From positions 1-23,192 of IMG/VR virus record IMGVR_UViG_3300010885_033104: a DNA stretch of 23,192 bases; one strand, 5' to 3'. The stretch comes from a virus. The notes below the pieces were generated by a model that saw nothing but the letters and a program-made list of their open reading frames with translations, was not told the origin of the DNA and made no database searches. Position 1 is the first letter of the stretch. Each line of letters begins with the position of its first letter. Position numbers and translations under genes: made by a program. Below, one piece after another: positions 1,606 through 13,848 of this stretch.

Positions 1606-2814
1606 TTATCGGCTAACTCGTTCTTTTTGCTTGAAGGCTTTAACTTTCTTCTGTTCTTCCTTCTTTTCCATCTTTTTTTCTACTTTAGTCTCTAATTGCT
1701 TCATTTTAATATCAGTAATTAGTCGCTCATATTCCTTGAAATTATTCTTTACTCTTTCCAGTTCTTTTTCTGGTATGAGTTTACGATCAATTAGAGCCCT
1801 GCAAGCGTTATAACCTTCTTCGATCTTTCCAGCATAGAAAGCAGTGCTTCCGATTTCATCCAAAATACCATAACGATAAACATCAGTATCGATAAACAGA
1901 ATGTCATCCTTTGGATATGGAATCTCAGCAGCCATACGGGCAAATGCATAAGATAGTGCTGGTTTACCATTCAGTCGATAGATTCTAGCAATCTGATAGA
2001 ATGGTTCTGCTCTTGTTGGACGAGCATTATATGCATCAAGGAATGCTTGTTGAATCTCAACCCAAGGCTTATTCTGCAACGCACGACACATAGCAATTCG
2101 GTAGATTGAGTAATATATTTCTTCTGGCCATCCACCCATCTCTACGCGTTTAACATATGCCTCTTCTGCTTTGTCCCATTGATGAGAGTCAAAGTAACTC
2201 TGTCCGAGATAGAACTGATAACGAACATTGGTTGGTTCATCGATCAGTGCTTTTTCTAGAAGTTCTGCATCCTTCTTATACTTTTCAACTGGATCGATGC
2301 CAACATTTCTTGCACCCATAGTACGGGCAACTACTCTGTATCCATCAATCAGTCGTTGAATATTTGGAGTCTTTCCTTCGATGCTTGGATATTCATGAAG
2401 TACACCATAGTACTTCCATCCAGAATTGGCTTTAAAGATCTGAGTTCTCCACCAAGAAAAATCACCGCGTCCCATTAGAACGGCATAACCATCTGCGTCT
2501 TTGATTTGATCTAATGGGAACTTACCTTCGAGATAATCGTCTGCATCGATCATGAAGATATAATCGGCTTTACCATCGCATAGTTGAAGGGCTTCTGTTC
2601 TGTTGTGTCCGAAACTTACCCACGGACGCTCAATGAGTTCTCCGGGAATACCCTTCTCTGCAAAATAGTTTTTGATTAGTTCTTGGGTTCCATCTGTAGA
2701 ACCTGTATCAACAATGACCCAGTAATCAATTTGGTCATGTATTGTATCAAAGCATTCTTTGATAATGTGCGTTTCGTTTTTTACGATCATTGATAAACAT
2801 AATTTAGGCTGCAT
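1606..2814 (-). CDS. Family 2 glycosyltransferase with TPR-like region and charged tail
   Basis: The protein is 402 residues from the ATG at 2814, chosen because GGTGGAG lies 6 bases upstream; the frame also has an upstream GTG at 2826. It begins as a GT2 enzyme ([25 protein letters not shown] near residue 36, catalytic DADD at 90-93), the pattern of glycosyltransferases that act on surface glycans. Residues about 170-340 contain helical, TPR-like repeats ([22 protein letters not shown]). The last ~45 residues are a Lys/Glu-rich probable coiled coil. Its start and SD lie within the last codons of gmd. GC content is higher than in the middle of the cluster and resembles gmd and the structural genes. 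Sugar and acceptor are unknown. It borders the fibre genes, so virion glycosylation is possible. Confidence 0.85.
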
Positions 2815-3856
2815 GAAAATCTCCACCTTTATTTAGGGCCTGGTGTGAATGGATTATAAACTCTTTCCGTCCAAGTTCGAAGTCGTGATCAACCATCATC
2901 TTAATGAGATCATCAACACTAGTTGTTGGTTCCCATCCAAGTTTTTCTTTGGCTTTTGAATAGTCACCAAGTAGTTGATCTACCTCTGCTGGTCTGTAAT
3001 ACCGTTCATCTACCTCAACATATTGTCTATAGTCCATTCCTTTTAGAGCAAATGCTTTTTCACAGAATTCTTTTACAGATATCATTTTATTAGTGGCAAT
3101 AACATAATCATCTGGTTGTTCTTGTTGTAGCATCATCCACATTGCCTGAACATAATCACCAGCAAATCCCCAATCACGATATGAATCTAGATTACCAAGA
3201 TATAGTTTCTTTTGTAATCCTTGATATATTCTTCCAATTGCTCGTGTGATCTTTCTTGTGACAAATGTTTCTCCACGACGAGGACTTTCGTGGTTGAAAA
3301 GAATACCACAGGAAGCATGAATACCATAACTCTCTCTATAATTTACAGTGAGATAATGTCCATACACCTTTGCACAACCATATGGAGAACGAGGGTAGAA
3401 TGGAGTTGTTTCTTTCTGTGGTACTTCCTGTACCTTACCAAACATCTCACTGCTTGATGCTTGGTAATAACGAATCTTCTTTCCGACTCGTTGTTCGTAT
3501 TCACGAATGGCTTCTAGAACATGAAGAGTTCCAATACCATCGACTTGTCCAGTATAAACAGGAGCATCAAACGAAACACGAACATGGCTCTGTGCGCCTA
3601 GATTGTATATCTCGTCTGGATTATGTTTATTAATCACATTTGAAACTGTATTGTAATCCGTGAGATCACCATAATGCAAAAATAGAGTCTTATTGTAGAT
3701 CTCTTGGTTTTCAATTAGATGTTCTAATCTTGCAGTATTAAATGAAGAAGAACGACGAATGATTCCATGTACGATATAGCCTTTTGACAAAAGAAGTTCT
3801 GCCAAATAAGAGCCATCTTGTCCAGAAATACCAGTAATAATAGCAACTTTAGTCAT
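2804..3856 (-). CDS. gmd: GDP-mannose 4,6-dehydratase
   Basis: The 350-residue protein has the usual GMD length and motifs: the NADP-binding [12 protein letters not shown] at residues 9-20, RRSSSFN at 34-40, ASSSEMFG at 133-140 with the catalytic Ser/Glu, and the Y159-x3-K163 pair. It also has the family stretch [17 protein letters not shown]. It converts GDP-D-mannose to GDP-4-keto-6-deoxy-D-mannose, the precursor of GDP-L-fucose, GDP-rhamnose, perosamine and colitose. Its start overlaps the upstream SDR gene as ATGA. With that SDR as a possible reductase and the two GT10-like transferases near 17.4-19.1 kb, a fucose-type pathway is plausible. GDP-mannose must come from the host, since no ManC or ManB is in the window. 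Confidence 0.96.
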
Positions 3857-4629
3857 AATATAGTTTCACTCAATTTATTAAATGTCTCACGAATACCATC
3901 AGATGTACCAATTACATTTATTGGTAGATCAGAACCACCACAATAGAAATCAAATTTCTTTTTATCCTGAATTACTACAGGAACTTTATGTGATCCTAAT
4001 GTATTTATGAAGTTTGCTATGTTCTGTAAAGTATATTTGTGTTCATATGAGCAATTAATGTCTTGTTCCAACCCATCATTTATCATGTAGTATTCTACTA
4101 AAGAAATAAGATCTTTCATATAAAAGAAATCCATTATCTTATTTGCATGAATAACCATTGGTTCTTTTTTAAGATAACGAATTATATTTGATTTTATAAA
4201 ACGGGTATCTAATTCATTGTGATCAAAAACGGCGAATATTCTCAGATTGTAGAAATTTGAATACTCTAAAATTCTTTTTGCAATTTCTCGTTTACTATTG
4301 GCATATAGAGTATCGCCATGAAATATTTCAGCACCAGAACCAAATGTTATTAATTTAGAAAAATGATGTTTATTTGCAACCAAATTATCAAACATTGCAA
4401 GGTTTTGTTCAAAAACTGTATCTTCGTCTTTTTTTAATCTTGTTCCACCAACTATAGCAGTATGAAGAACAATATCAAACTTTTGTTTATCAAAGAAAGA
4501 ACATGTATTATCATAATTAGTCAGATCAAAGTTTTTCCTAGTTATTGATATTATATTGTGTTTATCTTTTAAACTGTTATACAAACTTTTTGCAATATAA
4601 CCATTTCCACCAGTAATCAATATGTTCAT
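3853..4629 (-). CDS. NAD(P)-dependent SDR, nucleotide-sugar reductase/epimerase-like
   Basis: The 258-residue extended-SDR protein has the nucleotide-binding GGNGYIA at residues 7-13 (last Gly replaced by Ala), FGSGAEIF near 96-103 and a Y109-A-N-S-K113 catalytic pair. Overlapping ATGA junctions on both sides place it in one unit with gmd and the HAD gene. Directly upstream of gmd, it could be the GDP-4-keto-6-deoxymannose reductase or epimerase-reductase (GDP-fucose synthase role). However, it is shorter than typical Fcl (about 320 aa) and has Ala where Fcl has its conserved Cys after the Ser. The exact product is therefore open. The gene is very AT-rich compared with gmd next door. Confidence 0.82.
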
Positions 4630-5015
4630 TTTAATAAATTTATTTCCTTATAAGTTTGATTCCAATTTTCAAATTTTATAGCCTTGTCATCAACATAAGC
4701 CAATGCATGTGGTTTTTGAAAAGTTATATCATGTATATACTGTTTAATTTTATACTTTTCCAACCATTCCCATATTAAATCTATACCAGTTTTACCATTT
4801 ATTAATGGTCTATTTGGATTTGCTTTACATGTATAAATTATTATTGTATATTGCTTAGATATTTTTTCAATAAATTCTAATGCCCCATCAATAGGATTTC
4901 CATAAATTGTTCCATCATGGAATCCCAAATTATCATTATGAAGTACTCCATCAAAATCAACACATATAACATTTTTTGAATTTTGTATTTGTGATAAAAA
5001 GTCTTTAGTGTTCAT
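4626..5015 (-). CDS. Small HAD-family phosphatase
   Basis: From the ATG at 5015 the protein has 129 residues; the longer frame begins with TTG at 5045 and overlaps the upstream gene, so I prefer the ATG. HAD motifs are clear: I: VDFDGV with D20 and D22; II: IIIYTC with T62; III: K101-P; IV: YVDDKAI with D109 and D110. There is no room for a large cap domain, as in small phosphatases that act on sugar phosphates or on macromolecule ends. It sits between the PRTase fusion gene and the SDR/gmd pair, with an ATGA overlap to the SDR. A sugar-phosphate or phosphoribosyl-product phosphatase is the natural guess, but the substrate is unknown. Confidence 0.8.
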   Translation of the reverse strand: MNTKDFLSQIQNSKNVICVDFDGVLHNDNLGFHDGTIYGNPIDGALEFIEKISKQYTIIIYTCKANPNRPLINGKTGIDLIWEWLEKYKIKQYIHDITFQKPHALAYVDDKAIKFENWNQTYKEINLLK

Positions 5016-5019
5016 ATTA

Positions 5020-6432
5020 TTAAGAAAAACAACAAATGTGTTCAAATCCAGAGGAAGAAAGAATATCTTTAAAGGAATTTAAATCTTGAAAAACTATGCC
5101 ATTGACTCCAAAATACGAAACTAAATCATCTAGTGTCTTGTGTTCACACAATAAGTCACGATCTGGTTGCATATTTAATTTACATTTGTTTTTACACATA
5201 GGACTTGCAATGAAAAAATAAATGTTTGCCACTGAAGTATTCTGTAGCAAATTTCTAACAATTTTTAATGTTTGTCCGGTAAAAATGGCTTCATCAACAA
5301 TTCCAATAGTTTTACCATTTATTAGATCTGGTATCAACCCAAGTTTACAGTTAATAAACTGCTTTCTCTTTTCCGCATCATTTATATCAAAACTTCTACC
5401 AATTTCCGACTGCTTATAGAAAGCCTCTAAATATGGTTTATTTAAACTATGAGCCAATCCCTGAGCATAGTATTTACCCGTTTCTGGAATTGGTACTATT
5501 GCATCCAATTTATTAATAATATTGGTCGGAATATTTTTCCCAAGAGAACAACCTAGATTATATCTCCAATTTGCCACACTGTTATCATTTGCAATTTCAT
5601 TTGGTTTTTTCCGATATATCAAATTTAAAGGACATTTTGTTTGTTTATTAACATATGAATACAAATCTGTATTTATAAAATCGGTCTGAATATATGACAA
5701 TGTAACTGGTCTTGATACATCATCTTTAAATTCTATTACATTTGAATTAGATGAATTTGAAATAATATCATTAATAACATCATCAGCCAAATTTAATGAA
5801 AATTCATTTAAACTTTCTTCTTTGCATATATCAAATAGTTTTTCAGTATTATTTAAAATCTCTATGGGATTGGTTTGTAAATTAGAATTTACATAAGTGC
5901 AATATGACGAAAATTTATAAACCAAATCTGTTTCACGATTAAGTAAAGTTTCAATTTGGTTCAATCGGCTTTGATACCATTTTTTACTTGACATATTACT
6001 TAATTCAGTTTGATCATTGCTTCCTTTACAAATATGTAATGGATTTTTTATGGCAATAAAAATTAACTTGATACTTGATTTTTTGATTTGTTTTAATACA
6101 TCTATAAATTGTAAATATTTTTCTTGTGAAAGAAAAAGAAGTATTTCACTTGTAAAAATTAAAGTATCCGAATTATGCAGATTTATTAATCCTTGTATCT
6201 TATTGTAAGATTCCAAATGAATATTAAAAGTAGTATCATCAATACAGGAAAAATATTCTTGTGTAAAATCATGTTCGTGATCTATTCTTTTTATTTTATA
6301 ATTTCTTTTCATTATTTCATATAATCGTTTAGAAAATAAAAAATTACCACCGAGTAGTAAAAAATTAAACTCTTTGGGAAAAAATAAATTAAGATCTTTG
6401 TCGATTTTAGTTTTCATAATATTTAAATACAT
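5020..6432 (-). CDS. Degenerate Rossmann/SDR domain fused to a PurF-type phosphoribosyltransferase
   Basis: The protein is 470 residues from the ATG at 6432; an ATG at 6417 is an alternative, and neither has a well-spaced SD. Residues about 22-185 look like a decayed extended SDR: LLLGGNFLFSKRL in place of GxxGxxG, and a remnant Y153-x2-R helix without the YxxxK pair. Residues about 235-470 match the C-terminal half of amidophosphoribosyltransferase. They include DAIVPIPETGKYYAQGLA, the QSEIGRSF segment, the PRPP loop IVDEAIFTGQT (377-388) and an ending FEHICCFS like the PurF CxxCF end. The N-terminal glutaminase domain of PurF, with its catalytic Cys, is absent. So it probably binds PRPP and may use ammonia or another nucleophile. 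I know of no sugar pathway where this fusion is standard. It is among the most AT-rich genes here. Confidence 0.8.
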   Translation of the reverse strand: MYLNIMKTKIDKDLNLFFPKEFNFLLLGGNFLFSKRLYEIMKRNYKIKRIDHEHDFTQEYFSCIDDTTFNIHLESYNKIQGLINLHNSDTLIFTSEILLFLSQEKYLQFIDVLKQIKKSSIKLIFIAIKNPLHICKGSNDQTELSNMSSKKWYQSRLNQIETLLNRETDLVYKFSSYCTYVNSNLQTNPIEILNNTEKLFDICKEESLNEFSLNLADDVINDIISNSSNSNVIEFKDDVSRPVTLSYIQTDFINTDLYSYVNKQTKCPLNLIYRKKPNEIANDNSVANWRYNLGCSLGKNIPTNIINKLDAIVPIPETGKYYAQGLAHSLNKPYLEAFYKQSEIGRSFDINDAEKRKQFINCKLGLIPDLINGKTIGIVDEAIFTGQTLKIVRNLLQNTSVANIYFFIASPMCKNKCKLNMQPDRDLLCEHKTLDDLVSYFGVNGIVFQDLNSFKDILSSSGFEHICCFS

Positions 6433-8233
6433 TTTCCTTCATTTCATCTTCTGAAAGAAAAGGATACATGTCTTCTAATGATGGTGTATGAAATTTTCCA
6501 TCTTCTAATAATTTAGATTGCAGTTTAGGTTGAAATTGTTCATTTGGTTCTGTGACAATTTCACAAATTAGAGGTCCTTTAGCAGCATATACTTCAGTTA
6601 TTTTAGAATCAAGTTCAGCAATATTATCTATCTTTATAAATTTAATCCCATATCCATATGCAATTTTTTCTGCTGATGGAAAACTAATTCCACTATCTGA
6701 ATTAGCACCACAATATCCTTTTTCTTTGGCTTTAAACATTGACACTTGTGTCTGTTTAATAGAATGATATCCATCATTATTAATCCAAAATATTTTAATG
6801 TTTAGGTTGTTATGGATTATTGTTTGTAATTCTTGCAAATTCATTTGTATTGATCCATCTCCTTCAATGCAAATAATTTGCTTCTCTTTACTGTCCGCAT
6901 ATGCCGCACCAATTGCTGCCGCTATTCCATAGCCCATGCTTGATGCTCCAGCATTTGTGAATACTCTTTGACCCTTTTTTACTTCTATTGCCTGTAATCC
7001 CACAACACATGCGGCTCCATTAGCCAATACAACTACATCATCATGTTGCAGAGAATTAGACAAAGATTTAATAAAAGAATAAACACTAATTGGAGATATA
7101 CTTTTTGCGTGTTGTTCAGTTACTACTGGATATTTATTATTTATATCACGACACCAATTATTCCATTTTTTGGCTGAGTGGTGTGTAGAAGAATATTTGC
7201 AATTATTAATGGAGTTTAAGAATGTCTTTATATCTGACTGAATAGGATAATCAATCTTGACAGTAGGTTTAATTAATTCATATCTATCGGCATCTACTGC
7301 TATCTTGTACGCATTCTTTGCGAAGTTTTTCCAAGCATAACTTATTTGCCTAATTGAAAACTGACACCCTAATGCCAAAACAAAATCAGCATTTTGTAAT
7401 ACAAAGTTTCCACCTCTATCCCCAATCGTTCCCGGATGCCCCGCATAATATTCATGATCTCTCCAAATTAAATCATTTGAATTCCATTCAGTAACTACTG
7501 GGATTTTAAGACGGAAAACAGTCTCCAAGAAATCATCATATGAGTCAGACATTCTGATACCATAACCAGCAAGGATTACTGGTTTTTTAGCATTGTTCAA
7601 TTTATCAAAAATGTGAGTTAATACTTCATCACTAATTGCATCAGGCACACCAGCCTGTTCTGAGACAAAATTAAAATGCACTAATTCATCTTCATTTACC
7701 ATTGCAGATTGAATATCTAAAGGAATGTCCAACCAAACTGGACCCTTTCTTCCACTTTGTGCTAAATGAATACTTTTCTCTAAATGATAGGCAATATATT
7801 TTGGATCTGTAATCATAACAGCATACTTAGTCATACACTTAACGCTGTCGATAATATTAAATTCTTGGAATCCAAGTTGTCGCAATGGTAGTGGTGTTGA
7901 ATGTAAAGTAGTATTGAGATTCATCTGTCCCGATAAAACAATCATCGGAACAGAATCCAACCAAGCACCCAATACTCCAGTTACAGCATTAGTAGAACCA
8001 GGTCCTGATGTTACACATACTAAGCCAGGTTTCCCAGATACTCTTGCATATCCTTCAGCAGCCATGGCACAGGCTTGTTCATGATGGTTATAAATGCACT
8101 CAATTTGATCATTATGACCAAAACTGTCATTCATGTGCATCGCACCACCACCAGTAACAACAAAGCATTTATTGATATTGTGCTTTATGAAGAAATTAAC
8201 AATATAATCAGAAACTTTAATTGTTTTATTCAT
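6407..8233 (-). CDS. TPP-dependent acetolactate-synthase-like enzyme
   Basis: The 608-residue protein has the full three-domain layout of the acetolactate synthase/pyruvate decarboxylase family. The N-terminal domain holds the catalytic Glu (E52 in NHHEQACAMAAEGYAR) and the TSGPGSTNAVTGVLGAW segment. The middle domain is at about 195-345. The C-terminal TPP/Mg site has GDGS at 458-461 and NN at 485-486. Such enzymes decarboxylate a 2-keto acid and transfer the two-carbon unit to an acceptor. In sugar clusters, YerE-type members add this unit to C4 of a CDP-4-keto-3,6-dideoxyhexose, and the E1-like gene at 12.5-13.8 kb could make such an acceptor. It ends over the PRTase start (26-base overlap) and follows the aldolase gene by 1 base. 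A true ilvB role is less likely, as no small subunit is present. Confidence 0.9.
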   Translation of the reverse strand: MNKTIKVSDYIVNFFIKHNINKCFVVTGGGAMHMNDSFGHNDQIECIYNHHEQACAMAAEGYARVSGKPGLVCVTSGPGSTNAVTGVLGAWLDSVPMIVLSGQMNLNTTLHSTPLPLRQLGFQEFNIIDSVKCMTKYAVMITDPKYIAYHLEKSIHLAQSGRKGPVWLDIPLDIQSAMVNEDELVHFNFVSEQAGVPDAISDEVLTHIFDKLNNAKKPVILAGYGIRMSDSYDDFLETVFRLKIPVVTEWNSNDLIWRDHEYYAGHPGTIGDRGGNFVLQNADFVLALGCQFSIRQISYAWKNFAKNAYKIAVDADRYELIKPTVKIDYPIQSDIKTFLNSINNCKYSSTHHSAKKWNNWCRDINNKYPVVTEQHAKSISPISVYSFIKSLSNSLQHDDVVVLANGAACVVGLQAIEVKKGQRVFTNAGASSMGYGIAAAIGAAYADSKEKQIICIEGDGSIQMNLQELQTIIHNNLNIKIFWINNDGYHSIKQTQVSMFKAKEKGYCGANSDSGISFPSAEKIAYGYGIKFIKIDNIAELDSKITEVYAAKGPLICEIVTEPNEQFQPKLQSKLLEDGKFHTPSLEDMYPFLSEDEMKENVFKYYEN

Positions 8234-8234
8234 T

Positions 8235-9269
8235 TTATTTAGAATTGGTTAAAAAATCAATATACAGTTGTTGTATAACTGATTCATCATACTCTTCACG
8301 ATCAGCCTTTGATTCAATTTTACTCAAAATTTTATTGATATCTTGCAGAGAAAGATTTGGTTTTTCCATCAAATATTCGGCATATGATCTATGTGTTTTA
8401 TTAAATGCTGTTATAGCATATGCGGGTATATACCCCCACGGTGTATCTTTTTTGATACTTGATATGGGATGATCAATTGAATCATAAACTCCCTTTAAAT
8501 CATAACAGGTTTTCTGAATTGAGTTTAAATAACCCATTATTAATTCTGTACACAAATTACCGGGAATTCTACCCATTCCTTGAACCGAACAATCAATATA
8601 GGCTAATCTTGTATCTTTCACCATATCAATAAAACTAATAGCCAATGCTAATGATATTGAAAGATTTTCATGTAAATGTAATCCTATAGCAATGTCTTTA
8701 TCTAATTGCTGGTTAAATGTAGAAAAAATATTTGGTAAATCGGATGGTAGTATAGATCCAAAAGTATCTACAATATAAATTCCTTTTGGTTTAAATTGAT
8801 TCAAAGAAAATAACAACTGTTTAAGTTCTTGATCAGAATAACTCAAAACATTTACTGGGTTAAAAAATACCTCATAACCATATGATCTAGCAATCTCTGC
8901 TTGATGTAGCATTAGATCTAAATCATTATAGTGAAAGGCAAATCGTAAAAACTTGATTTTACCAGTGCATTTTTTTAACTTAGAAATGTCATACCAATCT
9001 GGACGAATCATTAAACAAAAATCTTGATCCGTATCAATGTTTTTTGTAAATTTTTCTGCTTCTGAAACAAAATTAAATAGGCTTTGATCTTTGCTATGAT
9101 TACCGTTTTTTAAAAATCCCAGTTCAATAAGATCTATATTAGTAGTTGATAAGTTATTAACAATTTTATTGATGTTTTCTTCACCAAAATTAAAATTGTT
9201 AACATATCCACCATCTCTTAAAGTGCAATCTAATAGTTTGATGTTTGATTTATTTTGTTGCATTACCAT
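8235..9269 (-). CDS. DRE-TIM metallolyase family aldolase (HMGL-like)
   Basis: The protein is 344 residues with the signature LLDCTLRDGG (metal-binding Asp and Arg, residues 12-21), the metal ligands in GLHLHEN (H198, H200), and GMGRIPGN (231-238) close to the active-site lid. This is the fold of HMG-CoA lyase, isopropylmalate synthase and 4-hydroxy-2-oxovalerate aldolase. Members of the aldolase type split or form C-C bonds with pyruvate and aldehydes. It lies directly upstream of the TPP enzyme, and the two probably act in one route, for example to build or supply a two-carbon or keto-acid unit for a branched sugar. The start is ATG 9269 or ATG 9263; the second would give a TAATG overlap with the 4,6-dehydratase gene. 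Substrate unknown. Confidence 0.85.
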   Translation of the reverse strand: MVMQQNKSNIKLLDCTLRDGGYVNNFNFGEENINKIVNNLSTTNIDLIELGFLKNGNHSKDQSLFNFVSEAEKFTKNIDTDQDFCLMIRPDWYDISKLKKCTGKIKFLRFAFHYNDLDLMLHQAEIARSYGYEVFFNPVNVLSYSDQELKQLLFSLNQFKPKGIYIVDTFGSILPSDLPNIFSTFNQQLDKDIAIGLHLHENLSISLALAISFIDMVKDTRLAYIDCSVQGMGRIPGNLCTELIMGYLNSIQKTCYDLKGVYDSIDHPISSIKKDTPWGYIPAYAITAFNKTHRSYAEYLMEKPNLSLQDINKILSKIESKADREEYDESVIQQLYIDFLTNSK

Positions 9270-10210
9270 ATAAATTTATTCTTATAGTATTCTACTGTAG
9301 GTTTTAGATTTTCATCAAAATTACTTTTAGGTTCCCAACCAATTGATCGTAATTTTGAATCATCTAGTGCATATCTTACATCTTGTCCGGGTCGATTGAA
9401 AGAAAAATTAATATATTCTTTTTGGTTTTCGGTTATACCATATGCAGTTAATATTTTTGTAACTGTTTCCATGTTACTTTGTTCGTAACCACCACAGATA
9501 TTATAAATTTCATTCGTAACACCGTTTTCTATTATCTGAATAACGGCGTTTGCTGTGTCTTCTGCATGTAACCAGTTTCTAATTGGTGTTCCATTATTAT
9601 GAATCGGTATTTTTCTTCCTAATTTTAAATACTTACATGCCTTTGGTATTAATTTTTCAACATATTGACCTATACCGTAATTATTAGTAGGACGAATGAT
9701 AACATAGGGTATTTTATAAGTTCTAGCCCATGCCAATATTAACATATCTGCTGCCGCCTTTGAAGCAGAATATGGATTAGAAGGTTTTAACACATCCGTT
9801 TCTGTGTGTGCGCCATCTATAATATCTCCATATACTTCATCCGTACTGAAATGTAACAGAACGGGAATTTTAGTATTCTCTTGTCTATAGTTTTTTAGTA
9901 ATTCCAAGATGTTATGAACACCATTTATATTACTAGTGATAAAGTCATCACTATTGGCAATTGAATTACCAACATGGGTTTCTGCTGCGGTGTTTATAAT
10001 GTAATCACAGTCATATAGAAACTTTAAATCATTGATATCACAATGAACAAATGAGAAATTATCATACTGCTTAAATTCTTCCAATAATTGTTTGTTTGCT
10101 GCATATGTCATTTTGTCTACGCCTTTAACATACCATCCTTTTTTAAGGCACAAACGAGTTACATATGAACCAATAAATCCCAAACAACCAGTAATATATA
10201 CGACTTTCAT
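9263..10210 (-). CDS. RmlB-like NDP-glucose 4,6-dehydratase
   Basis: The 315-residue SDR has ITGCLGFIGSYV (GxxGxxG at 8-14), the catalytic triad segment FSTDEVYGD (T123, D124, E125) and NPYSASKAAADML with Y147 and K151. It also has RPTNNYGIGQYVEKLIP, typical of dTDP- or CDP-glucose 4,6-dehydratases. These make the NDP-4-keto-6-deoxyglucose that feeds deoxysugar routes, here most likely the 3-dehydrase at 12.5-13.8 kb. The nucleotide (dTDP, CDP or UDP) cannot be told from the motifs. It is slightly shorter than RmlB (about 350 aa). The start overlaps the upstream SDR stop as TAATG. Confidence 0.9.
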   Translation of the reverse strand: MKVVYITGCLGFIGSYVTRLCLKKGWYVKGVDKMTYAANKQLLEEFKQYDNFSFVHCDINDLKFLYDCDYIINTAAETHVGNSIANSDDFITSNINGVHNILELLKNYRQENTKIPVLLHFSTDEVYGDIIDGAHTETDVLKPSNPYSASKAAADMLILAWARTYKIPYVIIRPTNNYGIGQYVEKLIPKACKYLKLGRKIPIHNNGTPIRNWLHAEDTANAVIQIIENGVTNEIYNICGGYEQSNMETVTKILTAYGITENQKEYINFSFNRPGQDVRYALDDSKLRSIGWEPKSNFDENLKPTVEYYKNKFIW

Positions 10211-11061
10211 TATTTACTTTCCTTTTTATAGAAGTTCACTAGCATTTCAATTGTAGTATCAATATTAAATTTTTGCTTGAAGCCATAAGATATTAACTTT
10301 GCAGTGTCAAGATAGGAATGCCGTACTTGAACAATATCATGAAAAGTCGTTGGCTGAATGTGTATTATTTTTGATGTTGAACCAGAATACTCAATCGCTT
10401 TGTTTATCATGTCCAAAAATTTATATGGTTTACCACTTCCAATATTTATTATCTGATTGGGGGGTGATTTATCCATGCACAGTTTAAGCGCAGAGCAAAC
10501 ATCTTCTACATGAATATAATCACGCAGAACTTCTCCACCATAATATAGTGGAACATCTCTATTATTAACTATTTCTCTGATCAAGAATTGAAGAGCATTT
10601 TTCTTCTTGGAGATCTTCTTATCTCCTTCTCCTATCACATTGGCTAATCTTAATATTCTGTATTTTATATTATGAGTTTGACAGAAAGAAACTAGTAATT
10701 GTTCAGCACAATATTTTGTGATTGAATAGAATCCAGAAGGATTACATTTTGAATAATCCTCCCGGAATGGCATTTCATAGTTTTTACCATAAACAAACCA
10801 AGAACTTACGAAGTTAAAAATAGTATCACTATTTTTTGGCAGATTTTCTAACACATTCATAAGAACTGTTAGATTGGTGTCAATATCAATGTGGAGATCA
10901 GTATGTACATTGTAATTGTCCACCGTGCTTATAAAATATAAAACATTATCTGTTTTTGACTTATAATCATTTCTGTCTATCCGTATAACAGAATCTGAAT
11001 ATAGTTCACAAAATTTAGATCCTATGAACCCAGTGGAACCAAAAACAGATATATCATTCAT
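10210..11061 (-). CDS. SDR-family nucleotide-sugar reductase/epimerase
   Basis: This 283-residue extended SDR has VFGSTGFIGSKF (GxxGxxG at 8-14), a catalytic Ser region NFVSSWFVYG near 83-92 and Y112-S-I-T-K116. The context resembles CDP-abequose/paratose synthases and YerF-type reductases, which finish 3,6-dideoxyhexose synthesis by reducing the 4-keto or branch keto group. A reductase acting after the E1-like 3-dehydrase and possibly the TPP enzyme is a reasonable guess, but C3/C5 epimerases and C4 epimerases share these motifs. It overlaps the upstream glycosyltransferase stop by 8 bases and the 4,6-dehydratase start by 1 base (TAATG). Confidence 0.8.
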   Translation of the reverse strand: MNDISVFGSTGFIGSKFCELYSDSVIRIDRNDYKSKTDNVLYFISTVDNYNVHTDLHIDIDTNLTVLMNVLENLPKNSDTIFNFVSSWFVYGKNYEMPFREDYSKCNPSGFYSITKYCAEQLLVSFCQTHNIKYRILRLANVIGEGDKKISKKKNALQFLIREIVNNRDVPLYYGGEVLRDYIHVEDVCSALKLCMDKSPPNQIINIGSGKPYKFLDMINKAIEYSGSTSKIIHIQPTTFHDIVQVRHSYLDTAKLISYGFKQKFNIDTTIEMLVNFYKKESK

Positions 11062-11830
11062 CGAATATAACCTTTTCGAATTTTGCTATATTGTGTTTAT
11101 TGTTTTTAATAAACATTTCATATGGATACTGCTGAATATCTGAAACTATTTTCTTAATTGGAAACGGGCACATAAGAGTAGGATATCCATCGATATCATT
11201 TTTTTCATACAACAATTCTATTAATTTTCTATTGAAAAGAGGTTTATTATCTTCATGTGTTTCTATTTTTTCATTTTTTAAATTATATGCAGCAATGTTA
11301 TAGATTCCACCAACCATTAATTTTGGTATAGAATAACCAATCTTAGTCATATGTCTCCAATGCATATCTGCATCCTCTTCACCAAATCCACAAAGGCGTT
11401 CATCAAAATAACCTATTTTATGCAAAATAGACTTAGTGCATACAAAATGCGAAAACCCATGATTGATTGTAAAAAATTCTTGCTTAGTTGCGTTGATGTG
11501 ATTTACAATTTCATTGTATATGTTGGGATTTGCCCATGCAACATCATCACATACTATAAAGTTATATTCTGTCTTGCTAAAAATGACCAAATTGTTCCAA
11601 AGTTTACTTAGTCCCTTAAACTCTGGACAAAATATAGGATAAATGTTTTTATATTGTTTTGCCAAATCTAACATTTCAATTCTATAACTATCTGGCATTT
11701 CTTCTTCATTATTACCATTTATGGCTAATAAAATATCAACAGTTTCTGGAACCGTTAATCTAATTCTTCGAATTAGTTCTGCTACCAATTCTTTTCTTTG
11801 TCTAAATGTAACTATTCCTATACTTAACAT
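11054..11830 (-). CDS. GT2-like glycosyltransferase
   Basis: The 258-residue GT-A protein opens SIGIVTFRQRKELVAELI, has a CDD nucleotide-sugar site at 94-96 and a GFGEEDADMHWR segment (148-159) that matches the catalytic ED motif of family 2 transferases. There is no membrane helix, so it acts in the cytoplasm on soluble or membrane-linked acceptors or on phage proteins. The start has the clearest SD of the cluster (GAGGAG, about 9 bases upstream) and a 13-base gap, so translation can begin independently here. Donor sugar unknown. Confidence 0.8.
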   Translation of the reverse strand: MLSIGIVTFRQRKELVAELIRRIRLTVPETVDILLAINGNNEEEMPDSYRIEMLDLAKQYKNIYPIFCPEFKGLSKLWNNLVIFSKTEYNFIVCDDVAWANPNIYNEIVNHINATKQEFFTINHGFSHFVCTKSILHKIGYFDERLCGFGEEDADMHWRHMTKIGYSIPKLMVGGIYNIAAYNLKNEKIETHEDNKPLFNRKLIELLYEKNDIDGYPTLMCPFPIKKIVSDIQQYPYEMFIKNNKHNIAKFEKVIFDE

Positions 11831-11843
11831 GTTATATCACTCC

Positions 11844-12536
11844 TCAAAGATATTTACTAAAATGATCATTTAAAATTTTAACTCTATTGTTATTAGACAC
11901 ACCAGTAAGATGTGCTAGAAAACTGTGTTCATTCCAAGGAGCATAAATTGCTCTACGACCAGTCCAACAAGTTGTATCCATAATTGGCGCTGGAACAGAA
12001 TTTAAAAAATTATGTTCTAATACTTTTATTACACTATTTGGTAAAGATCCACGATGAATTGCATTTAATGCATCTTGCTCTGTTGGAAATTTCTTTGCAC
12101 AATTATAAAACACATTCAAAAATGCATCCGTGTACTGAGTGCGTTGTATAATAAAATTCCCAGTACTAAATGTCCATTTACCAATCCAATCATAAGATGC
12201 ATAAAATGTATTATGTTCATCTAATTCAAATTTTTCTATAGAATAATTATCATCAGTTATGATGGAATCTGCATCTACCCACATAACAATATCATAATAT
12301 TCTAGCATTTCAAATGTACGAACTGCACGCAAAAAACCAATATCAGTATCTTTAAATCCGTACTTTTTATCAGTTCCAAAAGTTCGTAAAGTCATCAAAT
12401 CATAACCATGTTTTTTTGCATACCTCTGCTTAGATGGCAAAGTTAATTCAAAAACTTCATTCATTGTCTTGTCAGTTTCTAATGGATTACGAACAATTTC
12501 CGATGATCCTGTTAATATTAGAACTCTTTTATTCAT
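11844..12536 (-). CDS. GT34-like (GMA12/MNN10-type) glycosyltransferase
   Basis: From the ATG at 12536 the protein has 230 residues. I chose this start because GGAA lies 6 bases upstream; the longer frame has no ATG. It begins RVLILTG, then SKQRYAKKHGYDLM, a DxD site in MWVDADSII (D88-A-D90), a TFSTGNFIIQRT segment and a C-terminal SFLAHLTG. This order matches the galactosyltransferase GMA12/MNN10 family (GT34), which transfers alpha-galactose or mannose with a divalent metal. Family call moderate; donor unknown. The start lies 1 base past the stop of the E1-like gene. Confidence 0.75.
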   Translation of the reverse strand: MNKRVLILTGSSEIVRNPLETDKTMNEVFELTLPSKQRYAKKHGYDLMTLRTFGTDKKYGFKDTDIGFLRAVRTFEMLEYYDIVMWVDADSIITDDNYSIEKFELDEHNTFYASYDWIGKWTFSTGNFIIQRTQYTDAFLNVFYNCAKKFPTEQDALNAIHRGSLPNSVIKVLEHNFLNSVPAPIMDTTCWTGRRAIYAPWNEHSFLAHLTGVSNNNRVKILNDHFSKYL

Positions 12537-12537
12537 A

Positions 12538-13848
12538 TTATATTCCTGCGAAAAAATTTGTAGTGATTTGTTCGATATAGTCCAGTTGCTCATTAGTAAT
12601 TACTGGACTAGTTCCCAAAAAGAAAGTATCAGTAGTAACCTTTCTAGCATTTGGAAAATTGTTGATTACATCATCTTGATTCATTATACCAGTATAAGCG
12701 GGCTGTAGCATCACATTTCCAGCAAAGTACGGTCTAGTTTGAATCTTATTATCTTCAAAATAGTTTACAATGTCCTTACGCTTGAATGGCGCACCATCTT
12801 TGATTGTCAAGGCAAAAGCAAACCAACTTGGATTTGCATGTTCTGTTGCTTTTGGAAGAATAAAGAATTCTTCATACTTAGCAAAGATATCACTTAGTCT
12901 TTTGTGATTATGATTTCTCTTTTGAGTGATTGTTGGTAATTTCTTTAGTTGAGCAAGTCCCATAGCAGCCTGTAATTCAATTGGCTTTAGATTGAAACCA
13001 ATCTCATCATAAACATACTTGTGATCAAATACCTCATCAGGCAAAGAAGGAAGCCAATTAGAGAATCTTGTCTTACACATACCATTCTTTAACATATTGG
13101 CTTTCTTACCAACACAATAGCAACCTCTTCCCCACTCGCGGAAACTTCGAACTACGATCTCTTGCTGTTGTGTATTACAAGCAACGAATCCACCCTCACC
13201 CATAGTAATATGGTGGGCTGGATAGAAAGAACAACTAGCGAAGTCACCGAAAGATCCTAGTGGTTTACCATTGTAAGTAGAATCTAATGCATCACAGCAA
13301 TCCTCAAGAAATATTAAACCATACTGATTGACAATATCCATGAGTCTGTTCATATTTGGTGGATTACCCAACACATGTGCAAAAGTAATTACCTTGCAGC
13401 CTTCTTTTGCTTTTTGTTCTACTTGATCTAGGTTGAGATTGAGAGTGTCGATATCAATATCAACAAACTCAGGAACAAATCCAACTTGAAAAATTGGGTT
13501 AATTGTGGTGGGGAAACCGGCGATAGGAGTGATTACCTTTGTTCCCTTTTGGAAGTTTGTCAGTCTTTTGGATGTAAGAGCAGACATCATGAGCAGATTA
13601 GAACTGCTGCCGCTATTAGTCAAGATACCAAAATCTTTTCCAACATACTTTGGAAACTGATGTTCGAAACGAATACCGTTCTCGCCTAATACAAGCCACC
13701 CATTTAGTAAGGCTCGTATTGCTTCGACATATTCTTCCGTTCCAAAATATGGACCTGCGTATTGGACAATATCTTGTCCGGCAATCCATTTCTTTGATTC
13801 GTTCTTCTTGATTATAAACTCTTCTACTGCTTTTAAAATATCTTCCAT
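12538..13848 (-). CDS. RfbH/E1-type CDP-4-keto-6-deoxyhexose 3-dehydrase
   Basis: From the ATG at 13848 the protein has 436 residues, near the 437 of E1. It belongs to the DegT/DnrJ/EryC1/StrS fold but is not a transaminase: the PLP lysine is replaced by His (H212 in SFYPAHHITMGEGG), as in E1 (RfbH, AscC) and ColD. E1 holds a [2Fe-2S] cluster with cysteines C-X57-C-X-C-X7-C. Here C185-X57-C243-X-C245 is exact, and the fourth Cys (C258) follows after 12 residues, an insertion of five. E1 removes the C3 hydroxyl of CDP-4-keto-6-deoxyglucose, giving 3,6-dideoxyhexoses. Other matches: GFPTTINP, NCD-type LEDCCDALDSTY, and FDHKYVYDEIGFNLK. No obvious E3 ferredoxin-type reductase is in the window, so electrons must come from a host or distant phage protein. 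Confidence 0.92.
   Translation of the reverse strand: MEDILKAVEEFIIKKNESKKWIAGQDIVQYAGPYFGTEEYVEAIRALLNGWLVLGENGIRFEHQFPKYVGKDFGILTNSGSSSNLLMMSALTSKRLTNFQKGTKVITPIAGFPTTINPIFQVGFVPEFVDIDIDTLNLNLDQVEQKAKEGCKVITFAHVLGNPPNMNRLMDIVNQYGLIFLEDCCDALDSTYNGKPLGSFGDFASCSFYPAHHITMGEGGFVACNTQQQEIVVRSFREWGRGCYCVGKKANMLKNGMCKTRFSNWLPSLPDEVFDHKYVYDEIGFNLKPIELQAAMGLAQLKKLPTITQKRNHNHKRLSDIFAKYEEFFILPKATEHANPSWFAFALTIKDGAPFKRKDIVNYFEDNKIQTRPYFAGNVMLQPAYTGIMNQDDVINNFPNARKVTTDTFFLGTSPVITNEQLDYIEQITTNFFAGI

Follow-up and report, generated by a model that had tools for sequence, protein, structure and literature searches.

The stretch of DNA analysed here, a viral record of 23,192 bases that is itself a fragment (IMG/VR IMGVR_UViG_3300010885_033104, positions 1 to 23,192; this whole stretch is called the window below), carries on its minus strand a gene cassette whose most likely product is a rare sugar bearing an additional carbon branch. 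In our reading, the cassette probably encodes a phage pathway to a nucleotide-linked, C4-branched 3,6-dideoxyhexose of the erwiniose or caryophyllose kind, in which a thiamine diphosphate (ThDP or TPP) enzyme would use a 4-hydroxy-2-oxo acid as donor and form a branch of more than two carbons. A first-pass annotation had placed a 4,6-dehydratase, an E1-type 3-dehydrase, a TPP enzyme, a short-chain dehydrogenase/reductase (SDR) and an aldolase at 6407-13848, all of which are borne out by family and structure matches, and had proposed that a phage makes a yersiniose-like sugar with them. We retain the idea that the phage encodes the enzymes for a 3,6-dideoxy sugar branched at C4, among them a TPP enzyme of the YerE class; the two-carbon branch of yersiniose is not supported, because the partner genes of the TPP enzyme point to a donor like that of ErwE, a 4-hydroxy-2-oxo acid, and so to a longer branch. 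The suggestion, made in passing, that the acyl unit may come from the aldolase pointed the right way. The genes are listed here in their order of transcription; L numbers are our handles for loci.

12538..13848, minus strand: E1 (RfbH-type), homologue of cytidine diphosphate (CDP)-4-keto-6-deoxyglucose 3-dehydrase; NCBIfam PRK15407 over its cut-off, alignment with 3bcx and 3bb8.
11844..12593, minus strand: putative sugar-transfer gene adjoining E1, from its position and a 54% homologue at the same place in L122.
11054..11830, minus strand: family-2 glycosyltransferase-like; weak Pfam Glyco_tranf_2_2 match.
10210..11061, minus strand: SDR1, extended-SDR epimerase/reductase with YSITK; Pfam Epimerase 5.7e-30, 90% identical in L122.
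9263..10210, minus strand: RmlB-type nucleotide-sugar 4,6-dehydratase with STDEVYG; TIGR01181 at 317 bits, below cut-off, and PDB relatives.
8235..9269, minus strand: HMGL-type (DRE-TIM) aldolase; PF00682 2e-18, PDB 3dxi and 4-hydroxy-2-oxovalerate aldolases.
6407..8233, minus strand: YerE/ErwE/JanthE-like ThDP carboligase; PDB 8rph (JanthE) at 383 bits, and the tree.
5020..6417, minus strand: fusion of an RmlD-like Rossmann domain with a PurF-type phosphoribosyltransferase (PRTase); NCBIfam purF 1.2e-17, PurF hmmsearch 2.1e-22.
4626..5045, minus strand: small HAD-like protein, possible phosphatase; weak Pfam HAD, PHROG 1238, order kept in some relatives.
3853..4629, minus strand: SDR2, RmlD-like reductase with YANSK; Pfam, and PDB relatives of the RmlD and GDP-fucose synthase types.

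The sequence itself shows the enzyme families with their catalytic motifs, the arrangement of the genes and the pairing of the ThDP gene with donor makers. The cassette extends to the left of the interval first annotated, down to 3853, where a GDP-mannose dehydratase gene follows SDR2, and the frames from RmlB through the aldolase, TPP enzyme, PRTase fusion and HAD to SDR2 abut or overlap. The order RmlB-aldolase-TPP-PRTase-SDR2 is kept in eight other viral contigs, called window-type contigs here, which form four sequence clusters (RmlB is cut off in one of the eight and the HAD is present in five); since the same order recurs in these contigs, it is not due to chance.

The TPP enzyme has the three TPP Pfam domains, the catalytic Glu52 in HHEQA and GDG at 458, and its architecture, catalytic Glu and GDG...N motif place it in the ThDP decarboxylase superfamily. 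Its best relative in the PDB is 8rph at 383 bits, and the next, the best acetolactate synthase, reaches 240. 8rph is JanthE, a YerE-like enzyme (PMC12188165). In a tree of 68 sequences (a quick-method tree on a subset of 174 rows, in which two long branches were flagged and JanthE is represented by residues 6-598), the window protein and four other viral proteins form a group with support 100, within a 15-row set (support 99) that stands apart from Escherichia coli IlvB and IlvI; the ten bacterial rows of this set are seven labelled HMGL, one HpcH and two unlabelled. A grouping with acetolactate synthases, which the first-pass annotation had named as the outcome that would count against its proposal, is thus not what this tree gives. 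Acetolactate synthase was dropped as an identity for the protein, which scores 337 bits against model TIGR00118, below the cut-off of 538, is nearer to JanthE and lies apart from IlvB and IlvI. Its predicted identity is that of a YerE-class ketone carboligase, and its gene is accompanied by the deoxy-keto-sugar genes RmlB, E1 and SDR2.

The enzymes that may provide the donor are found beside the TPP gene. The HMGL and HpcH/HpaI aldolase families form or cleave 4-hydroxy-2-oxo acids, NeuB enzymes convert phosphoenolpyruvate to 2-oxo-3-deoxy-4-hydroxy acids, and PanB joins a 2-oxo acid to a one-carbon unit to give a 4-hydroxy-2-oxo acid. We fetched 79 viral and 80 bacterial loci, the best of 242 and of at least 531 confirmed matches, a sample biased to near relatives; leaving out L153, whose TPP gene is in pieces, 78 viral loci were counted, which include many near-copies and form 55 clusters at 90%. 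The donor-family profiles derive from these same loci, and confirmation with curated models covers representatives only (for HMGL the window, two bacterial proteins, eight viral records and also L271; two examples each of NeuB and PanB; one of HpcH). A homologue from one of these four unrelated families (HMGL, NeuB, PanB or HpcH/HpaI) lies within about 1 kb of the TPP gene in 71 of the 78 viral loci, the nearest family being HMGL in 11, NeuB in 29, PanB in 29 and HpcH in 2. The other 7 have none, and in two of these the sequence breaks off next to the TPP gene; four PanB loci have an additional NeuB homologue 5 kb off. Counted by viral cluster within 1 kb, the figures are NeuB 23, PanB 17, HMGL 7, HpcH 2 and none 6. 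The 80 bacterial loci, with distances up to 5.2 kb, give HMGL 48, HpcH 10, NeuB 7 and none 15, and nine gammaproteobacterial loci with short flanks give HMGL 2, NeuB 3 and none 4 (one gene, listed both as L082 and as L162, enters both counts). In a reciprocal scan, all 80 viral PanB relatives considered, the best 80 of 99, have a YerE-like TPP gene within 1 kb, 79 of them within 100 bp; as the query consisted of TPP-adjacent PanB genes and the contigs are partly the same, this is support rather than an independent sample.

The PanB neighbours, which in two relatives score above the NCBIfam panB cut-offs, also fit pantothenate synthesis. Together with the match to acetolactate synthase models and with a viral survey table that names ilvB as an auxiliary gene (PMC8226683), they could mean that the TPP enzyme has nothing to do with the sugar genes and is an auxiliary metabolic enzyme of the acetolactate synthase kind, serving the synthesis of branched-chain amino acids or pantothenate. 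We hold this to be very unlikely, given the score below the acetolactate synthase cut-off, the greater nearness to JanthE and the presence of an E1-like gene in 44 and of an SDR2-like gene in 48 of the 55 viral TPP clusters. Moreover, NeuB is an equally frequent partner. To our knowledge NeuB has no place in pantothenate synthesis, and for this reason its frequency weighs against such a role.

Donor class follows the TPP tree: the 50 labelled rows need 7 changes, whereas the mean after shuffling is 25.6 and 0 of 200 shuffles came out as low, a clustering that near-copies favour. The TPP clade is thus linked to its donor maker, and the two have nevertheless been re-paired several times. In the nearest sibling phage, L122, the E1, SDR1 and RmlB proteins are 95%, 90% and 78% identical to those of the window, and a NeuB-family synthase separates the dehydratase from a TPP enzyme that is 42% identical and belongs to another clade. 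A fifth kind of partner is a pair of genes. Acetaldehyde dehydrogenase and 4-hydroxy-2-oxovalerate aldolase together convert acetyl-CoA and pyruvate to 4-hydroxy-2-oxovalerate, and homologues of the dehydrogenase and of this type of aldolase follow the TPP gene in viral L149, L150, L151 and L271, both scoring above NCBIfam cut-offs in L271. The same pair is found in gammaproteobacterial L166 and L167, which have JanthE-like TPP enzymes (57% identical to JanthE in L166) and in which the dehydrogenase is cut by the locus end. L149, L151 and L166 fall in JanthE's clade and L150 does not clearly do so; the tree excluded L271. The idea that relatives lacking an HMGL aldolase are pyruvate-using YerE types was dropped, their neighbours being NeuB, PanB or HpcH. 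In the HpcH-type locus L101 (10735-13233), a FabG-like SDR and an AroB-related putative sugar-phosphate lyase, with TIGR04425 just below its cut-off, stand by the TPP gene, and L060 and L075 have genes of similar sizes downstream of theirs.

The aldolase of the window is of the HMGL family, and its gene is one base from the TPP gene; in all eight other window-type contigs the two genes abut or overlap. The protein keeps D19, H198 and H200, which we take to be its metal site. A scan of viral contigs with the single sequence gave no relative, and one with a three-sequence alignment gave nine, namely seven window-type contigs, L271, which has a TPP gene, and L270, which has none. For the subfamily of this aldolase no report of a reaction was found in the literature. 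The bacterial aldolases that adjoin a TPP gene (L009 8386-9981, L016 6555-8162 and most loci with an aldolase) are mostly of about 530 residues, with a C-terminal domain of some 190 residues that is lacking in the phage protein and had no convincing Pfam match in the two that were scanned.

The E1 protein scores 463.9 bits against NCBIfam RfbH, for which the cut-off is 423, and its best solved relative, aligned along its length at E 2.4e-106, is 3bcx, CDP-6-deoxy-L-threo-D-glycero-4-hexulose-3-dehydrase. Its motif PAHHITMG has His where chain 3bb8, presumably a His-to-Lys mutant, has Lys, and all four cysteines expected for the iron-sulfur (Fe-S) cluster are present, at 184/185, 243, 245 and 258. 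The curated score, the His for Lys and the four cysteines place it in the E1/RfbH family, as had first been noticed from the motif and the cysteines. A His-type E1 with Fe-S cysteines is present in 61 of the 72 viral loci that have a long DegT homologue, and in 48 of the 53 other loci that have one. In L089, L103, L119, L136, L146-L148 and L160, a DegT protein of the TPP locus has a His in the catalytic place (SFYASH) and no Fe-S cysteines; it is perhaps another type of 3-dehydrase.

For the dehydratase, the best model is that of deoxythymidine diphosphate (dTDP)-glucose 4,6-dehydratase (TIGR01181, 317.1 bits, under the cut-off of 365.1), and every one of the ten solved relatives with an E value of 1e-40 or lower is named a dTDP- or TDP-glucose 4,6-dehydratase. 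Against the CDP-glucose 4,6-dehydratase model TIGR02622 it reaches 82 bits where the cut-off is 278, and its motif is STDEVYG. The RmlB motif is found in 56 of the 58 viral loci having a recognised dehydratase motif (21 of 79 viral loci have none). By comparison, 33 of 70 bacterial dehydratase-like proteins have TTDKVY, presumably the motif of the CDP type, two have the RmlB motif and 27 have none of the motifs sought. Of 48 viral records, only 3 give a strong match to a cytidylyltransferase of the CDP-glucose type, two of them above cut-off, and 2 have a ferredoxin. The nucleotide is probably dTDP; the CDP option that had been left beside it becomes less likely, because the dehydratase is of the RmlB type and the window fragment has neither a sugar nucleotidyltransferase nor an E3-type FAD domain. 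By the same absences, the activation of glucose and the supply of electrons would be host-derived.

What the enzymes act on, which nucleotide carries the sugar, in which order the steps run and what is made, and to what end, we infer from these genes as follows. The RmlB-type enzyme would convert a nucleoside diphosphate glucose, probably host dTDP-glucose, to the 4-keto-6-deoxy sugar, from which E1, with pyridoxamine phosphate, its Fe-S cluster and electrons from a host reductase, would remove O-3 to give the 4-keto-3,6-dideoxy sugar. The HMGL aldolase would form a 4-hydroxy-2-oxo acid from pyruvate and an aldehyde, which the HAD, and perhaps the PRTase fusion, may prepare or strip of its phosphate. 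The ThDP enzyme would then decarboxylate this acid and add the 3-hydroxyacyl unit to C4, giving a tertiary alcohol; SDR2, a proposed YerF-like reductase, would reduce the new ketone, and nearby glycosyltransferases would attach the sugar to an acceptor.

Several observations weigh against this pathway. In five complete viral loci (L095, L100, L104, L105 and L131) and in 15 of the 80 bacterial ones, the TPP gene is not accompanied by any of the four donor makers. The window aldolase has 74.8 bits against the 4-hydroxy-2-oxovalerate aldolase model TIGR03217 (cut-off 286) and lacks the His after RDG that is present in 1nvm, so that its substrate, and even the direction of its reaction, are putative. 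A viral relative of the aldolase (33%) occurs in L270, a 128-kb record with no TPP match, so that membership of this aldolase family does not imply a TPP partner, and in one window-type record a second HMGL gene lies elsewhere. The tree holds JanthE as its only characterised YerE-like member, and cannot say whether YerE or ErwE is nearer. Five of the eight other window-type contigs (L002, L003, L006, L007 and L089) have no Fe-S E1, which makes 3-deoxygenation less than certain for them; four of these five have other His-type DegT proteins, which may replace it. The PRTase fusion, tied to the aldolase in eight of nine viral loci, has no explanation in the proposed pathway. Finally, the E3-type FAD domain (PF00970) absent from the window is found in 0 of 48 viral records as well, which is weak evidence, these being fragments; the yersiniose A pathway includes an E3 reductase.

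Some of these points would suit a yersiniose-type pathway, in which the TPP enzyme takes pyruvate and adds a two-carbon unit and the aldolase serves another purpose. Pyruvate is always available, the set of 4,6-dehydratase, E1, TPP enzyme and SDR is that of the published YerE scheme (PMC12247030), five viral loci lack all four donor-making families, and L270 has the aldolase without the TPP gene. We regard this as unlikely, since a single base separates the aldolase and TPP genes in the window and the two abut or overlap in the eight other window-type contigs, the donor slot is occupied in 71 of 78 viral loci, the 80 viral PanB relatives considered all adjoin a TPP gene and ErwE offers a precedent (PMC12247030). 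The TPP enzymes of the five viral loci without a donor maker may themselves be pyruvate users; these loci belong to a viral TPP clade and have, just before the TPP gene, a small HAD of 50-55% identity to that of the window, preceded in L095 by a cupin-like protein. The aldolase gene of L270 (3992-4999) adjoins a GDP-mannose dehydratase homologue.

The missing Fe-S E1 near TPP in five of the eight contigs, and a PRTase fusion with no known role in sugar branching, would also agree with two separate products, the aldolase, TPP enzyme, PRTase and HAD making a small molecule of their own and E1, RmlB and the glycosyltransferases an ordinary 3,6-dideoxyhexose. This we think quite improbable, as RmlB lies directly upstream of the aldolase in the window-type contigs, many bacterial relatives join a TTDKVY-type dehydratase, E1, aldolase and TPP enzyme, and YerE, ErwE, MMAR_2332 and MygE are all tied to branched sugars (PMC12247030). 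The fusion itself consists of an RmlD-like Rossmann domain and a PurF-type domain with no glutaminase (the structure model used in the fold search has a mean pLDDT of 72), and it occurs in nine viral loci, eight window-type contigs and one cut off at the contig start, examples being the window at 5020-6417, L002 at 11438-12829 and L088 at 11788-13125.

Taking the C4-branched 3,6-dideoxyhexose with a longer branch as the product, related phages seem to swap the side-chain enzyme, which would allow different versions of the sugar. We see an even balance of chances that phage sugar-branching is modular, with a common core of RmlB-type dehydratase, Fe-S 3-dehydrase and reductase and an exchangeable pair of ThDP clade and donor maker that sets the branch, so that swapping would give a changing repertoire of dTDP-linked C4-branched sugars; the donor maker of the pair could, with the same balance, be an HMGL aldolase, an acetaldehyde dehydrogenase with a BphI-type aldolase, NeuB, PanB or HpcH/HpaI. 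YerE-like enzymes and branched sugars are already known in bacteria, and the exchangeable donor module is the new part. No description of YerE-like enzymes in phages was found among the titles and abstract starts listed by searches of open-licence papers that named phages together with these enzymes or sugars, and a report elsewhere is possible; the viral survey table lists ilvB, rfbG and gmd among auxiliary genes, which its available text does not link to each other (PMC8226683). A rule based on gene pairs would give many YerE-like enzymes, including bacterial ones with no known product, a testable donor, and the ilvB, panB and neuB "auxiliary genes" of viral surveys may need to be read again. 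The same rule shows that viral contigs abound in enzymes that may catalyse the formation of tertiary alcohols. Moreover, the cassette suggests that phages build elaborate branched sugars, perhaps altering host surfaces, virion proteins or phage DNA, and if the modular pair is real it would provide phage glycans with a changing repertoire of new branched sugars.

Matches to the TPP enzyme extend beyond these loci. There are 41 plasmid records, of which the 25 listed have 26.9-29.8% identity and, where annotated, are mostly called "acetolactate synthase", and 47 records of cultured or deposited phages, 26 of which cover 80% of the query at about 21-31% identity. The faecal phage record MT837090 has a match of 49% identity over 29% of the query, at the contig end. 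Among Gammaproteobacteria, 9 of 369 genomes matched at E 1e-80, the starting genome included; a search at 1e-75 in the family of a genome picked via its Gnd protein gave 0 of 275 and, with no positive control among them, is uninformative.

Judged by its replication genes, the fragment comes from a T4-like phage. These genes lie at the right end of the window, and among the 15 best phage records listed for the gp44-like protein the nearest is Pelagibacter phage Mosig (59%), with other pelagiphages and cyanophages at 56-58%. Much of the remaining window consists of minus-strand genes resembling those of sugar metabolism and transfer. A GDP-mannose 4,6-dehydratase (2804-3856) scores well above its NCBIfam cut-off, and the phage may additionally start a GDP-6-deoxyhexose route with it. 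The left end (3-1055) encodes a collagen-like protein with GXY repeats, open at the contig edge and probably a fibre protein.

Among the known systems, YerE of Yersinia pseudotuberculosis prefers pyruvate and builds the branch of yersiniose A, two carbons long, on CDP-3,6-dideoxy-4-keto-D-glucose (PMC12247030). The window shares with it the set of 4,6-dehydratase, E1, ThDP enzyme and reductase, and differs in its adjacent aldolase, its dTDP-type dehydratase and the lack of an E3 domain. JanthE of Janthinobacterium sp. HH01 (8rph) accepts 4-hydroxy-2-oxovalerate in vitro with benzaldehyde as acceptor (PMC12188165). It has about 35% identity to the window enzyme over the whole length and shares a C-terminal segment with it, whereas it has CDG in place of GDG and belongs to a separate TPP clade, in which three relatives pair with acetaldehyde dehydrogenase and an aldolase different from that of the window. 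Closer in its predicted chemistry is the erwiniose pathway of Pectobacterium atrosepticum, where ErwE refuses pyruvate, prefers 4-hydroxy-2-oxobutanoate, -pentanoate and -hexanoate and acts on CDP-4-keto-3,6-dideoxyglucose (PMC12247030). Compared by description only, the two systems have in common a YerE-like ThDP enzyme, a hydroxylated 2-oxo acid donor longer than pyruvate, predicted in our case, and a 4-keto-3,6-dideoxy acceptor, which is CDP-linked for ErwE; the window has a dTDP-type dehydratase and a phage as carrier. The caryophyllose locus of Mycobacterium marinum, likewise compared by description for MMAR_2332, serves a bacterial glycolipid sugar, and resembles the proposed pathway in the long polyhydroxy branch on a 3,6-dideoxyhexose, a 1,3,4,5-tetrahydroxyhexyl group (PMC5706390), and in a donor preference like that of ErwE (PMC12247030). 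The hydroxyl missing at C2 of this branch would fit an aldol addition of pyruvate followed by decarboxylative transfer.

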